DNA of 39,066 bases from Thermodesulfovibrionales bacterium (GTDB taxonomy: Bacteria; Nitrospirota; Thermodesulfovibrionia; Thermodesulfovibrionales; Dissulfurispiraceae). A model generated the notes under the pieces. The model was not told where the DNA came from. It was given only the letters and a program-made list of their open reading frames with translations, and did not search any database. This document shows, piece by piece, positions 33,272 through 38,356 of the stretch (within the stretch, counting starts at the first letter, position 1; the number at the start of each line of letters is the position of its first letter). The DNA lies in assembly GCA_026415415.1 (NCBI GenBank), contig JAOAHE010000011.1, positions 1 to 39,066 of the forward strand, given 5' to 3'. Made by a program: the position numbers and the translations under genes.

Positions 33272-34492
33272 TTATGAATCAAATTTTTTATGATACTCTT
33301 TGACTTTTTTCGCAAATTCTTTTCCAAATTCGTAACACTTTAATTCATCTTCAAGAGATGGCTTATAGTTAATCTGAAGCCCAGGTTCAAAAGTTTCTAA
33401 CCCCATTTTCTTAAACTCCTCGTAAGCATTCTTAACAGCACCACCACCCCATCCATAACTTCCAAAGGCACCCACAATACGATTTTTCGGTCTTAAACCA
33501 CTAAGATGATAAAGAATCTGAGCAACTGTTGGGAACATTACGTTGTTTATAGTTGGGGTCCCGAAAAGGGTTCCACGAGACTTCCAGAACTCTTTCACAG
33601 CCACACTCATAGGAGTCGCTCTTAGCTTCATAATCTTACACTCAAGTCCTTCATCTTTAATCCCTTGCATTATAGGGGTTGCCATGATCTCTGTGCTGTG
33701 CCACATTGTATCGTATATAATTGACACAGAAAGTTTTGATTTACCTGATGCCATATCAAGATACATACTAAGAATCTTTTCAGGATGAGAACGCCAGATT
33801 ATACCATGATCAGGTGCTATCATCTCGATAGGAATACCTAATTTTTGAACCTCTGCGATTTTAGACTTAATAAGCTGACCAAAAGGCATTAATATATTAG
33901 CATAATAATCAAAAATTGCATCTTCAAGTTCATACATAGACTCACAAGATATAAATTCATCGTCAAATCTTACTGCTGAAGCTATATGTTGTCCAAAAGC
34001 ATCTTGGCTAAAAAGAATTTTATCCTCCTTAGCATAAGTCATCATTGAATCTGGCCAGTGAAGCATTGGAGTTTCAAGAAATAGTAAAGTCTTTTTTCCT
34101 ATTGAAAGAGTATCTCCTGTTTTTACTATTTTTATATTCCATTTAGATATATCAAAGAATCTACTAAGACCTTTTTTACCTTTCTCGGTTATATAGACAG
34201 TTGCGGTTGGTGTCAAAGACATAATTCTGTCTATACTTGTAACATGGTCATTCTCTATATGATTAATAACCACATTTTTAATCTTTTCAGGGCTAACTAT
34301 GCTCTGAATATTTTTTATAGTTACATCGGCAAAATCTTCTTTAACGGTATCTATTAAGGTTATATCATCATCTATAATAAGATAGTTATTATATGATGTA
34401 CCACGAGGAGTTTCATACCCGTGGAAGTCCCTAACGGACCAGTCTATCGCACCAACCCAAAATATATCCTTCTTAATTTCTACTGCTGTCAT
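33272..34492 (-). CDS. fprA: FprA-type flavodiiron protein (O2/NO reductase)
   Basis: A 406-residue cytoplasmic protein. The metallo-beta-lactamase-like diiron domain (1–250) has HIENDH (78–83), the exact H-x-E-x-D-H iron site, then MLHWPDSMMTY, LFSQDAFG and APDHGIIWR with further iron ligands. The flavodoxin-like FMN domain (about 255–400) has IIYDTMWHSTEIMA and GAFGSYGWGGGAV. Class A flavodiiron proteins reduce O2 to water (or NO to N2O) with electrons from rubredoxin-type partners. The genes just upstream encode two desulforedoxins and a rubredoxin fusion, the likely donors. The ribosome site AAGGAGGT is perfect. It is the last gene of the operon. Confidence 0.95.
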   Translation of the reverse strand: MTAVEIKKDIFWVGAIDWSVRDFHGYETPRGTSYNNYLIIDDDITLIDTVKEDFADVTIKNIQSIVSPEKIKNVVINHIENDHVTSIDRIMSLTPTATVYITEKGKKGLSRFFDISKWNIKIVKTGDTLSIGKKTLLFLETPMLHWPDSMMTYAKEDKILFSQDAFGQHIASAVRFDDEFISCESMYELEDAIFDYYANILMPFGQLIKSKIAEVQKLGIPIEMIAPDHGIIWRSHPEKILSMYLDMASGKSKLSVSIIYDTMWHSTEIMATPIMQGIKDEGLECKIMKLRATPMSVAVKEFWKSRGTLFGTPTINNVMFPTVAQILYHLSGLRPKNRIVGAFGSYGWGGGAVKNAYEEFKKMGLETFEPGLQINYKPSLEDELKCYEFGKEFAKKVKEYHKKFDS

Positions 34493-34510
34493 TTACACCT
34501 CCTTAAAAAG

Positions 34511-34645
34511 CTATTTACACTCATAGCCCTCACCAATAAGAGTCATTTTAGCATTACAACAGACTAAATCGCCACCACCAGCATTAGTGACTACAACTTC
34601 CTGCTCACAAATATTACATCTATATTTCTGGCCAACTTTTGTCAT
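34511..34645 (-). CDS. dsr: Desulforedoxin-like iron protein, copy 1
   Basis: A 44-residue protein read directly from the minus strand. YRCNIC (Cys10, Cys13) and LVCC (Cys29, Cys30) give the C-x2-C…C-C iron site of desulforedoxin and of the N-terminal domain of desulfoferrodoxin. The superoxide-reductase catalytic domain is absent, so this is a stand-alone electron carrier. AAAGGAG precedes the ATG. It lies 18 bases before fprA and 37 bases after its paralogue; the two proteins share about half of their residues. Electron donation to the flavodiiron protein is inferred from position. Confidence 0.88.
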   Translation of the reverse strand: MTKVGQKYRCNICEQEVVVTNAGGGDLVCCNAKMTLIGEGYECK

Positions 34646-34682
34646 CTTAAAACTCCTTTAATCTAAAAATTAAAATAATCTT

Positions 34683-34817
34683 TTATTTACACTCAAACCC
34701 CTCCCCTATCAACTCCATAAACTTTCCACAACATGATAAAGCCCCTCTACCGGGAGCTGTAACTACAACTTCATTACCACAAATCATACATTTATATTTC
34801 TGTCCTAATTTTGCCAT
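34683..34817 (-). CDS. dsr: Desulforedoxin-like iron protein, copy 2
   Basis: A 44-residue paralogue of the next gene, with YKCMIC (Cys10, Cys13) and LSCC (Cys29, Cys30), the same length and the same ending IGEG-F/Y-ECK. A perfect ribosome site (AAGGAGGTGAT) precedes the ATG. It follows the rubredoxin-fusion gene by 13 bases. Why two copies are kept is not clear: they differ mainly between the cysteine pairs, so they may serve different partners or redox potentials. Confidence 0.88.
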   Translation of the reverse strand: MAKLGQKYKCMICGNEVVVTAPGRGALSCCGKFMELIGEGFECK

Positions 34818-34830
34818 GTATATCACCTCC

Positions 34831-35310
34831 TTAACCTAAATTTTCAAAAGAATCCTTCCCTGCCTTACATACTGGACACTTCCAATCAGATTGCAGTTTC
34901 TCAAAAGGTATACCTTGATCTTTTTCTTTATAGAGCCATTTACATACAGCACATCGCCATACATTATAGTCTTCTCTGTCATGTATACTACTAATAATTT
35001 CCCATCCTCTCTTTTCCCATTCATTAACTGAAGGTGGATAAAAACCTGAATATATTACTTTATCCCTCGCATCATCAAAATCAACCTCAATAATATAACT
35101 ACCTTTTCTTACTTTATATCCCCATTTAAAATTATCTTTAGTAGAAGGAGTTGATGCCTTAGCAGAAAAAGAAAAATGATTACTATTTCTTTTAACCTTA
35201 GAGTAACTATAACAGCAGGGAAGTATAGAGGTACATCCACATTTACCATTTTTAAGCTCCAACCCATCTACTCTAAAACCACCCGGTATCTTTTCTATGT
35301 AAATTTCCAT
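34831..35310 (-). CDS. Rubredoxin fused to a cysteine-rich N-terminal domain of unknown function
   Basis: A 159-residue protein. The C-terminal part (117–157) is a rubredoxin-like domain: WRCAVCKWLY (Cys120, Cys123), GIPFEKL, and DWKCPVCKAGKDSFE (Cys145, Cys148). The glycine of the usual CxxCG knuckle is replaced by lysine on both sides. Residues 1–115 match no family I recognise. They contain KCGCTSILPCC (Cys24, 26, 32, 33), which could bind a second metal, then a beta-strand-like segment KWGYKVRKGSYIIEVDF. Its place between peroxiredoxin and desulforedoxin/flavodiiron genes argues for electron transfer in O2 or peroxide reduction. The ribosome site is weak, and a stem-loop lies between it and the peroxiredoxin gene. 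Confidence 0.8.
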   Translation of the reverse strand: MEIYIEKIPGGFRVDGLELKNGKCGCTSILPCCYSYSKVKRNSNHFSFSAKASTPSTKDNFKWGYKVRKGSYIIEVDFDDARDKVIYSGFYPPSVNEWEKRGWEIISSIHDREDYNVWRCAVCKWLYKEKDQGIPFEKLQSDWKCPVCKAGKDSFENLG

Positions 35311-35375: not shown

Positions 35376-35410
35376 TTAGCCCCCTACAAAATAGGAGAAT
35401 AGGGGGCTAA
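35376..35410. terminator. Strong stem-loop between peroxiredoxin and rubredoxin-fusion genes
   Basis: TTAGCCCCCTA (35376–35386) pairs perfectly with TAGGGGGCTAA (35400–35410): 11 base pairs, five of them consecutive G-C, loop 13 bases. It starts 14 bases after the peroxiredoxin stop. On the minus strand no T run follows, so it may attenuate or protect the upstream transcript rather than fully stop transcription; on the plus strand TCTTATTTTA follows. Confidence 0.6.
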
Positions 35411-35424
35411 TCTTATTTTAAAGA

Positions 35425-36069
35425 CTATTTTGATATAACATCTTCGCCACCATAGTAACCTTCAAGGGCTTCATAAACCTTACCCACCATCTGAGCTGAT
35501 GGTTTTAAAGTTTTATCTCCTTCATCTTTCCATTTTGCTGGGCATGCTTCTTCTGGATGAGCAGAAAGGTAAAGATTTGCTTTAAATTTCCTCATTAATT
35601 CATCGATATTCCTTCCGATGTTATAGAAATTAACTTCTGAGTTAAAAAGTTTTCCATCTGGGCTGATTATAAAAGTTCCCCTTAAAGCTAAGCCTGTCTC
35701 TTCATCATATACCCCAAACAATTTCGAAACTCTGCCTGTTGGATCTGCACCCATAGGATATTTCACATTTTTTAACATCCCCTCGGATGCTTGCCAAGCA
35801 AGGTGAGTAAACTTTGTATCAGTACTTACTGTTATAACCTCTGCACCAAGATTTTTAAACTTTTCATACTGTTCTGCAAGTGCTGCAAACTCGGTTGCAC
35901 AAACAAAGGTAAAGTCAGCTGGATAAAAAAACAGTATTGTCCATTTTTTATTAGCCTTTAACGTCTCAAGACTAATCTCACCAAAGTCACCTTTTGAAGG
36001 TTCATAAGTCTCCATCTTAAAATTAGGTACATCTTGCCCGACTCTCAAACCACAACAAATTTCTTCCAT
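35425..36069 (-). CDS. Typical 2-Cys peroxiredoxin (AhpC/Prx1 family)
   Basis: A 214-residue thiol peroxidase. PADFTFVCATEF (50–61) carries the peroxidatic Cys57 in the PxxxTxxC setting, Arg130 is the conserved catalytic arginine, and EEACPAKW (174–180) carries the resolving Cys176. The C-terminal YYGG-like tail resembles sensitive Prx1 forms. It reduces H2O2 and organic peroxides; the electron donor would be thioredoxin or, given the neighbours, a rubredoxin-type protein. The N-terminal pair Cys5-Cys6 is an extra. AGGAGGT precedes the ATG. It is encoded 66 bases downstream of the RCKP mini-gene and is likely under PerR control. Confidence 0.94.
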   Translation of the reverse strand: MEEICCGLRVGQDVPNFKMETYEPSKGDFGEISLETLKANKKWTILFFYPADFTFVCATEFAALAEQYEKFKNLGAEVITVSTDTKFTHLAWQASEGMLKNVKYPMGADPTGRVSKLFGVYDEETGLALRGTFIISPDGKLFNSEVNFYNIGRNIDELMRKFKANLYLSAHPEEACPAKWKDEGDKTLKPSAQMVGKVYEALEGYYGGEDVISK

Positions 36070-36135: not shown

Positions 36136-36240
36136 CTACTTTTTCTCCATTGTGCCCTGCTCTCCACATTTAGGGCATTTCTTAGGTTTACACCTTGTAT
36201 CCTTTGTTTCACCACATTTACTGCAAGCATAAATTGCCAT
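36136..36240 (-). CDS. RCKP-type rubredoxin-like mini-protein
   Basis: A 34-residue protein read directly from the minus strand: YACSKCG (Cys6, Cys9), then RCKPKKCPKCGE (Cys17, Cys22, Cys25). The RCKP motif and the two CxxCG knuckles place it in the small RCKP-type rubredoxin-like group found in anaerobes. It probably binds one iron or zinc through four cysteines and may carry electrons. AGGAGGT is 6 bases before the ATG, and the gene begins 20 bases after perR, so the two are co-transcribed. Confidence 0.85.
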   Translation of the reverse strand: MAIYACSKCGETKDTRCKPKKCPKCGEQGTMEKK

Positions 36241-36260: not shown

Positions 36261-36659
36261 TTATTTTTCTTTAGTTTTACATGACTTACAGATTCCATAG
36301 AAATCTATGTGAGTTGTTGTAATCTCAAAATCCTCTAAATAGTCCTTGGGTACTCTGATATCAAAATCAATATCTACATCAATTATTTTTTTACACTGTA
36401 CACAAATCAAATGGTGATGATGACGAGTGTCAGGATCATAATGCTTCTTATCAGGGTCAATAGTTACTTCTTGTACAAGCCCCATATTTTTAAGAATATC
36501 AATGTTTTTATACACAGTAGCTAACGAAATATTTGGGAATTGTTCAACCACATAATTATAAATATCTTCTACAGTTGGATGATTCTTGTTGCCCTGAAGA
36601 TATTTCATAATTGCCATTCTTTGAGGAGTTTGTTTAAGTCTTAAAGTTTGTTTATCCAT
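36261..36659 (-). CDS. perR: Fur-family peroxide-type repressor (PerR-like)
   Basis: A 132-residue winged-helix regulator. Helix-turn-helix region: TPQRMAIMKYL and NISLATVYKNIDIL. Two zinc knuckles, CVQC (Cys86, Cys89) and CKSC (Cys124, Cys127), give the structural site. By spacing from Cys86, the residues His27, Asp75, His81, His83 and Asp94 line up with His37, Asp85, His91, His93 and Asp104 of Bacillus PerR, the iron-sensing site where histidines are oxidised by H2O2. The aspartate at the Asp85 place favours PerR over Fur. It is the first gene of the defence island, with PerR-box-like elements around its own promoter. Confidence 0.92.
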   Translation of the reverse strand: MDKQTLRLKQTPQRMAIMKYLQGNKNHPTVEDIYNYVVEQFPNISLATVYKNIDILKNMGLVQEVTIDPDKKHYDPDTRHHHHLICVQCKKIIDVDIDFDIRVPKDYLEDFEITTTHIDFYGICKSCKTKEK

Positions 36660-36669
36660 ATCAATCTCT

Positions 36670-36725
36670 TAATAATAATTATTTTCAATTGATATAAGTT
36701 ATCATATAATAATAATTATTGTCAA
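36670..36725 (-). promoter_or_regulatory. perR promoter with paired PerR-box-like operators
   Basis: On the minus strand -35 TTGACA (complement of 36720–36725) and -10 TAACTT with an upstream TG (complement of 36696–36701) are 18 bases apart. The identical 14-mer TAATAATAATTATT occurs at 36670–36683 (between the start point and the perR start codon) and at 36707–36720 (in the spacer, touching the -35). Each matches 11 of 14 defined positions of the Bacillus PerR box. The imperfect palindrome TGATATAAGTTATCA (36690–36704) covers the -10. This fits autorepression. Confidence 0.65.
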
Positions 36726-36823
36726 TAGGTATTTTAAATTTTTTTAAATTTTTTTTTAAAACTTAAAATATACTTTACAACATTAAGGTTACAAGTGAAC
36801 TATCAAAATGTTAAATTAAAATT

Positions 36824-38356
36824 ATGGATGTTGAAAAAGATAAGGTCTTAATCAGGGGAGTTAACTGGTTAGGTGATGCCGTTATGACTATACCAGCAAT
36901 TAACTCCTTAAGAAAGACTTATAAAAACCAATACCTCTGCCAGCTACTAACGCCTTCAGTCTCAGCTATTTTTGAAAAAGATCCCAAAATTGATGAGATC
37001 ATTTTATACGAAAAAAAATTTAAAACTATTCCTGGACGAATAAACCTCTCTTTTTTATTAAGAAAAAAAGGGTTCTCAAAGGCATACCTCTTACAAAACG
37101 CTTTTGATGCTGCTTTAATAACTTTTTTAGCAGCAATTCCTGAAAGAATCGGGTATAACAGAGATGGTAGAGGTTTTCTACTTACAAGCCCTATCCCTTA
37201 CCATAAAGAGGATAGAAAACTCCACCATATAGAATATTATCTAAACCTTTTAAGGCAATCTGGATTAAAAGCTGAATACTCTATCCCTTATATATTTTTA
37301 TCATTAAATGAAAGGCTATATGCAAAAGATACGCTTTCAACTTTAAGAAAACCAGTTCTTGGAATTAACCCAGGAGCATCTTATGGCTCTGCTAAAAGAT
37401 GGTTAACAGAAAGATTTACAGATGTTTCAGAATGGTTTATAAAGGATTTAAAAGGAAGTGTAGTAATTTTTGGGAGCAAAAATGAAGAGCAAATTGCTTA
37501 TGAAATTTACAGCAAATTAACGAGAAATCTTTCGGAAGAAGCACCCATTATTAATTTTACGGGTAAAACATCAATAAGACAGCTAATGAGCCTTTTATCA
37601 GAATGTGATTTAGTCTTATCTAATGATTCAGGACCTATGCACATCTCTTATGCTGTTGGCACTCCAGTAGTCGCTATCTTCGGCTCTACATCACCAGAAC
37701 TCACTGGTCCACCGCTAAAAGGAAACATAGTTTTGCAAGGAAAAGCTATCTGTAGTCCTTGCTTTAAAAGAAAATGTGACCAAGAATATATAAAGTGCAT
37801 GTATGATATTTCATCTGAAGATGTATACTTCGCTTTAAAAAATATAATGCCTTATAATAGGGCTGTTTTTTTTGACAGAGATGGCACTCTTTGCGAAGAT
37901 GCTAATTACCTAAGAAGATGGGAAGATTTAAAAATTTTTCCACAAATTTATCACCTTAAAAAATTAAGAGAAAAAGGCTACCTATTAATTGGGGTTTCAA
38001 ATCAATCAGGAATAGCAAGAGGTATTATTGATGAAGATTTTGTAAAAGCAGTAAACAAAGAATTTATTGATAAATATTTTTTCCATGATTTTTTCTACTG
38101 TCCTCATCATCCAGATGAAAAATGTTCATGCAGAAAACCTGAGTTATCAATGATTTTTGAAGCAAAAATTAAATATAAAATAAATCTAAAAGAATCATTT
38201 GTGGTTGGGGATAAAGAGAGCGACATAATGCTTGCAAAAGCTATTGGAGCTAAAAGTATATTTATTATCAACAATAAAAAACGAGAAGATGTTTATTCCG
38301 CTGACTATACTGCATCCAACTTAAAAGAAGTAGTCGATTACATTCTCAATGATTAG
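36824..38356 (+). CDS. waaF-gmhB: Lipopolysaccharide heptosyltransferase II fused to GmhB phosphatase
   Basis: A 510-residue fusion of two LPS-core enzymes. Residues 1–345 are a GT9 heptosyltransferase: RGVNWLGDAVMTIPAINSLR (11–30), NPGASYGSAKRW, and NDSGPMHISYAVGTP (267–281) for ADP-heptose binding. Residues 346–510 are a HAD-IIIA phosphatase of the GmhB type: FFDRDGTLCEDANYL with nucleophile Asp351 and Asp353, SNQSG, the zinc loop CPHHPDEKCSC (Cys426, His428, Cys434, Cys436) and VGDKESDI. GmhB makes heptose 1-phosphate from the bisphosphate, an early step to ADP-heptose; WaaF uses the final product. Both halves look complete. It is divergent from perR. Its ATG has no ribosome site. Confidence 0.92.
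   Translation: MDVEKDKVLIRGVNWLGDAVMTIPAINSLRKTYKNQYLCQLLTPSVSAIFEKDPKIDEIILYEKKFKTIPGRINLSFLLRKKGFSKAYLLQNAFDAALITFLAAIPERIGYNRDGRGFLLTSPIPYHKEDRKLHHIEYYLNLLRQSGLKAEYSIPYIFLSLNERLYAKDTLSTLRKPVLGINPGASYGSAKRWLTERFTDVSEWFIKDLKGSVVIFGSKNEEQIAYEIYSKLTRNLSEEAPIINFTGKTSIRQLMSLLSECDLVLSNDSGPMHISYAVGTPVVAIFGSTSPELTGPPLKGNIVLQGKAICSPCFKRKCDQEYIKCMYDISSEDVYFALKNIMPYNRAVFFDRDGTLCEDANYLRRWEDLKIFPQIYHLKKLREKGYLLIGVSNQSGIARGIIDEDFVKAVNKEFIDKYFFHDFFYCPHHPDEKCSCRKPELSMIFEAKIKYKINLKESFVVGDKESDIMLAKAIGAKSIFIINNKKREDVYSADYTASNLKEVVDYILND

Follow-up and report, generated by a model that had tools for sequence, protein, structure and literature searches.

The 39,066-nucleotide stretch of DNA analysed here (hereafter the window) contains a perR gene, encoding a Fur-family peroxide-sensing repressor, and the region immediately upstream of it (36660-36730) is very probably the autoregulated promoter of a peroxide-defence operon (perR, an RCKP rubredoxin gene and ahpC) with a two-box design. 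The analysis directly yielded the boxes with their conserved positions and spacing, the gene order of the operon and the assignment of the regulator as PerR. Comparison of 127 perR promoters indicated that the operator unit is a 15-bp Per box of the 7-1-7 type with the consensus TTAGAATNATTCTAA, which is present in the window in an AT-rich form. Scores in the window come from a Per-box position weight matrix (PWM) that was trained without the window, and box positions are counted from the first T of TTGACA to the box centre. The promoter has the following elements:

36720 to 36725, minus strand: -35 hexamer TTGACA of the perR promoter, read from the sequence and near-invariant among relatives.
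36707 to 36721, minus strand: Per box 1, CAATAATTATTATTA, centred on 36714 in the -35/-10 spacer (11.1 bits; conserved position 12).
36698 to 36703, minus strand: -10 region GATAAC (GATAAT in relatives), from the alignment of relatives.
36690 to 36704, minus strand: central imperfect palindrome TGATATAAGTTATCA, overlapping the -10 (-1.6 bits as a Per box).
36673 to 36687, minus strand: Per box 2, TGAAAATAATTATTA, centred on 36680, just 3' of the expected start point (11.1 bits; conserved position 46).

The two boxes are thus 7-1-7 inverted repeats at conserved positions near the promoter of a peroxide-stress operon, as expected of Per boxes. A preliminary description of this DNA had read the operators as two copies of a 14-mer, TAATAATAATTATT, which resembled the Bacillus PerR box and whose centres were 37 bases apart. 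We recovered both 14-mers, the TTGACA and the central element at the coordinates given there. The exact copies, at 36670-36683 and 36707-36720 (centre distance 37), are the only two in the window, and the second shares one base with the perfect minus-strand TTGACA at 36720-36725. Two Per-like boxes are therefore retained, but the unit is the 15-bp 7-1-7 box and not the 14-mer, and in the register common to relatives the spacing is 34 bp instead of 37 bp. Near-matches to the 14-mer with at most two mismatches exceed expectation in the window (16, against 5.5 expected), but the 14-mer is built of TAA repeats. The spacing of 37 bp results from a 3-bp register ambiguity within the repeat. It corresponds to a 12/49 reading in which Per box 2 occupies 36670-36684 (centre 36677, position 49, 10.9 bits). 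Because the box here is a TAA repeat, the readings of 34 and 37 bp are inseparable from the window sequence alone.

The evidence for the paired arrangement comes from relatives. Upstream DNA was read for perR homologues gathered in 60 relatives and on 12 named contigs. Most of these promoters carry one module, TTGACAATAATAATTCTAATnTGATAATATTTATTTAATAAGAATAATTCTAAA, with two 7-1-7 boxes that follow the consensus TTAGAATNATTCTAA and have their centres at positions 12 and 46. A 59-bp profile of this module, built from 18 relatives with the window excluded, scored 35.5 at the window perR promoter. The runner-up, at 14.3, was this module again, read from the other strand, and no unrelated place in the window reached -11. 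With the promoter hexamers dropped and only the box columns kept, the perR promoter still ranked first (15.0 versus 7.9 for the best unrelated place), and in 50,000 local shuffles the two boxes never occurred together at the observed positions. A search of the genome with a sequence model of the module returned only the window perR promoter (E-value 4.5e-8, versus 0.2 for the next match). As the window supplied one of the 19 rows of this model, the non-circular test is the profile from 18 relatives. These comparisons indicate that the paired, promoter-anchored arrangement is not due to chance. Genes for defence against peroxide and oxygen lie downstream of perR in nearly all relatives. Some perR promoters (L189, L194, L196, L199, L070, L071 and L077) have another palindrome, of the TGTAATNATTACA kind, and the box sequence has therefore diverged within the PerR group.

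The central palindrome was also considered as an operator, a reading that is not supported. Five of its seven pairs are complementary, so the palindrome is imperfect, and as a third Per box it scores -1.6 bits. The left half, TGATAA, coincides with the conserved -10 region, while the right half is not conserved among relatives. This suggests that 36690-36704 is probably promoter (-10 region) and not operator. An alternative -10, TAACTT with an upstream TG, lies at 36696-36701. The centre of the palindrome is exactly midway between Per box 1 and Per box 2, and PerR may make a weak third contact there, because a good box occupies that slot in some lineages, the sister species G001 (L023) among them.

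The genes downstream of the promoter are:

36261 to 36659, minus strand: perR, Fur-family peroxide-sensing repressor of 132 amino acids (PF01475; ligands aligned to B. subtilis PerR 2fe3).
36136 to 36240, minus strand: RCKP-type rubredoxin-like protein of 34 amino acids (NF045720).
35425 to 36069, minus strand: ahpC, peroxiredoxin (PF00578 and TIGR03137).
35377 to 35409, minus strand: strong hairpin after ahpC with no T-run (z-score of -3.2 for a 91-nucleotide stretch).
33272 to 35310, minus strand: second gene group, encoding an Rd-domain protein, two desulforedoxin-like open reading frames (ORFs) and a flavodiiron protein (family matches).

The perR product has the Fur-family fold (PF01475, 108 bits; cut-off 23.1), and among solved structures B. 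subtilis PerR (2fe3) is closest to it. Residues H27, D75, H81, H83 and D94 align with H37, D85, H91, H93 and D104 of that protein, which are its regulatory metal ligands; an aspartate rather than a glutamate at the last position separates peroxide-sensing PerR from Fur. The two CxxC motifs of the structural zinc site are present as CVQC and CKSC. The best match to an NCBIfam PerR equivalog (NF052545) scored 121.5 bits, below its cut-off of 180, and that model represents a single lineage. On the basis of the ligands and the gene context we identify the protein as a PerR outside the named equivalogs. B. subtilis PerR represses ahpC-type genes and perR itself. The hairpin after ahpC is probably the end of the first transcription unit, and the leader RNA folds no more stably than shuffled sequences. 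In the second gene group, which further includes a glutaredoxin-like protein, the two desulforedoxin-like ORFs (MAKLGQKYKCMICGNEV... and MTKVGQKYRCNICEQEV..., minus strand, 34500-34820) are short, follow each other in tandem and lie between the Rd-domain and flavodiiron genes and fall under the cut-off of the ORF list. The "defence island" of the preliminary description is a peroxide and oxygen defence cluster, not a phage defence one.

By analogy with the known family, metal-loaded PerR dimers would bind the two 7-1-7 boxes, one in the -35/-10 spacer and the other just past the start point, and the two bound boxes would jointly block RNA polymerase. Peroxide would oxidise the metal site of PerR and release it from the DNA, and peroxiredoxin, rubredoxin and more PerR would then be made until peroxide drops. 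PerR binding, repression and peroxide release at this promoter are all predicted in this way. Several observations weigh against an autoregulated two-box promoter. The window boxes are weak and AT-rich, single boxes of 11 bits occur at chance level in the window, and Per box 2 is compatible with two registers 3 bp apart. The -10 (GATAAC) is poor, and a generic promoter scan did not list the perR promoter. The earlier prediction of autorepression by two sites bracketing the promoter gains from the architecture kept in relatives and from the peroxide-defence operon downstream. Its looping variant does not, as looping is unlikely between sites 34 bp apart, and the comparative data agree better with dimers placed side by side at 17-bp steps.

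To characterise the spacing, box pairs were compared in three sets of promoters. In set 1 (53 modules, from the order to which the window belongs), non-overlapping boxes of at least 9 bits were only ever 34 bp (20 pairs) or 17 bp (6 pairs) apart. When set 1 was collapsed to 32 dissimilar promoters there were eight pairs at 34 bp and six at 17 bp, versus 0 and 0.1 in shuffles. Set 2 (51 perR genes from the wider phylum, absent from training) had seven pairs at 17 bp and one at 14 bp, while set 3 (21 promoters reached via named delta-proteobacterial and Nitrospinae contigs) had five short-range pairs, all at 17 bp. Sets 2 and 3 serve as replicates drawn from additional families and from other phyla; 12 of their 13 close pairs are exactly 17 bp apart, and partner scores around the best box peak at -17 and +17, approximately 3.5 standard deviations over other offsets. 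Note that the sequences counted are related and are not independent events. A motif-agnostic dyad search did not show the rule clearly, with small excesses only, at 17 and 25, and the rule therefore rests on the Per-box PWM.

Counted from the -35, the occupied slots are mainly -4, 12/13, 29-31 and 46/47. One promoter has boxes at 34 and 51, which are off phase yet still 17 bp apart, and for this reason the spacing seems to be set by the repressor and not by the promoter. The 17-bp spacing suggests adjacent, cooperating PerR dimers; that dimers at multiples of 17 bp touch, making box pairs cooperative, we consider about evenly balanced. Slightly more tentatively, we propose that in a PerR lineage spanning several phyla the operators are quantised at exact 17-bp steps interleaved with the sigma-70 elements. 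Side-by-side dimers would form a cooperative array over the spacer, the -10 and the start point, with lineages filling different slots (-4, 12, 29 and 46 from the -35) and the left half-site TTAGAAT doubling as the -10 hexamer in some. Promoters such as L046, L074 and L208 have a box centred at 30, and there the hexamer TAGAAT serves both as the -10 and as the left half-site. We found no description of a 17-bp rule or of tandem Per boxes in the open-licence literature, where absence is weak evidence.

The spacings could instead reflect two independent boxes with no dimer-dimer contact, placed 34 or 17 bp apart by promoter landmarks and common descent. This is a plausible alternative, if a somewhat doubtful one: most promoters keep their slots at fixed distances from the -35, and the promoters of set 1 are related. 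However, pairs shift jointly by 1 bp relative to the -35 (12/46, 13/30 and 30/47), the 34/51 pair keeps its spacing off phase, and the 17-bp spacing is seen again in other families and phyla, which fill different slots.

It is unlikely that a Fur-family paralogue of the same genome, such as an iron-sensing Fur, reads the boxes in place of PerR or together with it. The 7-1-7 plan is common to Fur and Per boxes and the genome of the window (G000) encodes three further Fur-family genes, but the box accompanies perR in every sampled lineage and is usually the best match of its genome, and the paralogue promoters examined lack it.

We also looked for other members of the regulon. Across the genomes of 20 relatives the best box match is usually the perR promoter and other matches are sporadic. 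Two related genomes (L155 and L163) have a perfect TTAGAATAATTCTAA directly upstream of a carbonic-anhydrase-like gene, within a conserved GGTACCGCGGTTAGAATAATTCTAA. A box model (R2) gave 13 matches in the genome of the window, all with chance E-values and none convincing. The 14-mer had been put forward as a marker of stress genes genome-wide, and the scan suggested as a check gave no enrichment: the 1.89-Mb genome has 21 copies with at most one mismatch, versus 26 for a reversed control. Exact copies number three, the third being near an AtpF-like gene, and most near-copies are inside genes or upstream of unrelated genes. The 14-mer was rejected as a regulon marker on these grounds. One near-match, with a single mismatch, is located 62 bp upstream of a rubrerythrin gene (L019, G000:C74:25893-25906) and has a weak partner (5.1 bits) 17 bp away. 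Rubrerythrin is a possible second PerR target; none of 24 rubrerythrin homologues of relatives was found with a Per box.

On the other side of the promoter lies a divergent gene:

36809 to 36817, plus strand: conserved -10-like element TGTTAAATT of the heptosyltransferase gene, from an alignment of the divergent regions of 14 relatives.
36824 to 38356, plus strand: divergent fusion of heptosyltransferase II and GmhB (TIGR02195 and HAD-IIIA matches).

The preliminary description had the operators control this gene too, by proximity. Approximately 15 relatives share the divergent heptosyltransferase-perR arrangement, but many others keep the boxes without a heptosyltransferase neighbour, and a conserved -10-like element belonging to the gene itself lies approximately 90 bp from Per box 1, so we consider such control very improbable. 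In many relatives a conserved TGTTAAACTAA-type element lies only approximately 7-12 bases before the ATG (36809-36824 in the window), which suggests that the heptosyltransferase-GmhB transcript may be leaderless or nearly so.

That the boxes arose by chance as repeats of AT-rich intergenic DNA and play no operator role is extremely unlikely: the 14-mer is not enriched in the genome and 11-bit boxes are frequent by chance, but a profile blind to the window found a promoter-anchored pair at the conserved position and the local shuffles never reproduced both boxes.

Autoregulation of perR is of an ordinary, known kind, and the exact 17/34-bp rule is the part that we did not find described. Most work on PerR concerns Firmicutes and a few pathogens, and the present comparison provides an operator model for a PerR group from poorly studied bacteria, in which perR lies beside genes for peroxide defence. 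The rule was replicated across separate sets of genomes and yields a specific prediction on contacts between Fur-family dimers on DNA. B. subtilis PerR shares with the window the same ligand residues, an AT-rich 7-1-7 box and control of perR and ahpC-type genes; the lineage described here differs in its consensus TTAGAATNATTCTAA, its paired boxes at 17 or 34 bp and the RCKP rubredoxin in the operon. The B. subtilis Per box consensus is given as TTATAATNATTATAA in the available portions of Rodionov 2004 (PMC545781). In those portions, delta-proteobacterial regulons combine perR with rbr, roo and ahpC, autoregulation is predicted and the Geobacter box lies near the -10, but the consensus sequences are different and a 17-bp pairing is not given. 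In Synechocystis, the PerR protein Slr1738 represses its own gene and ahpC through a long AT-only motif between slr1738 and sll1621, and a multimer of dimers has been proposed (PMC3293774). Unlike here, those two genes are divergent and the modelled steps between dimers are 3 or 6 bp, not 17 (PMC3293774). At E. coli znuABC, two adjacent Zur dimers bind one promoter cooperatively through direct contacts (PMC4219657). The PerR promoters would resemble that system in pairing a Fur-family repressor with adjacent dimers, a contact at 17-bp spacing being predicted here.
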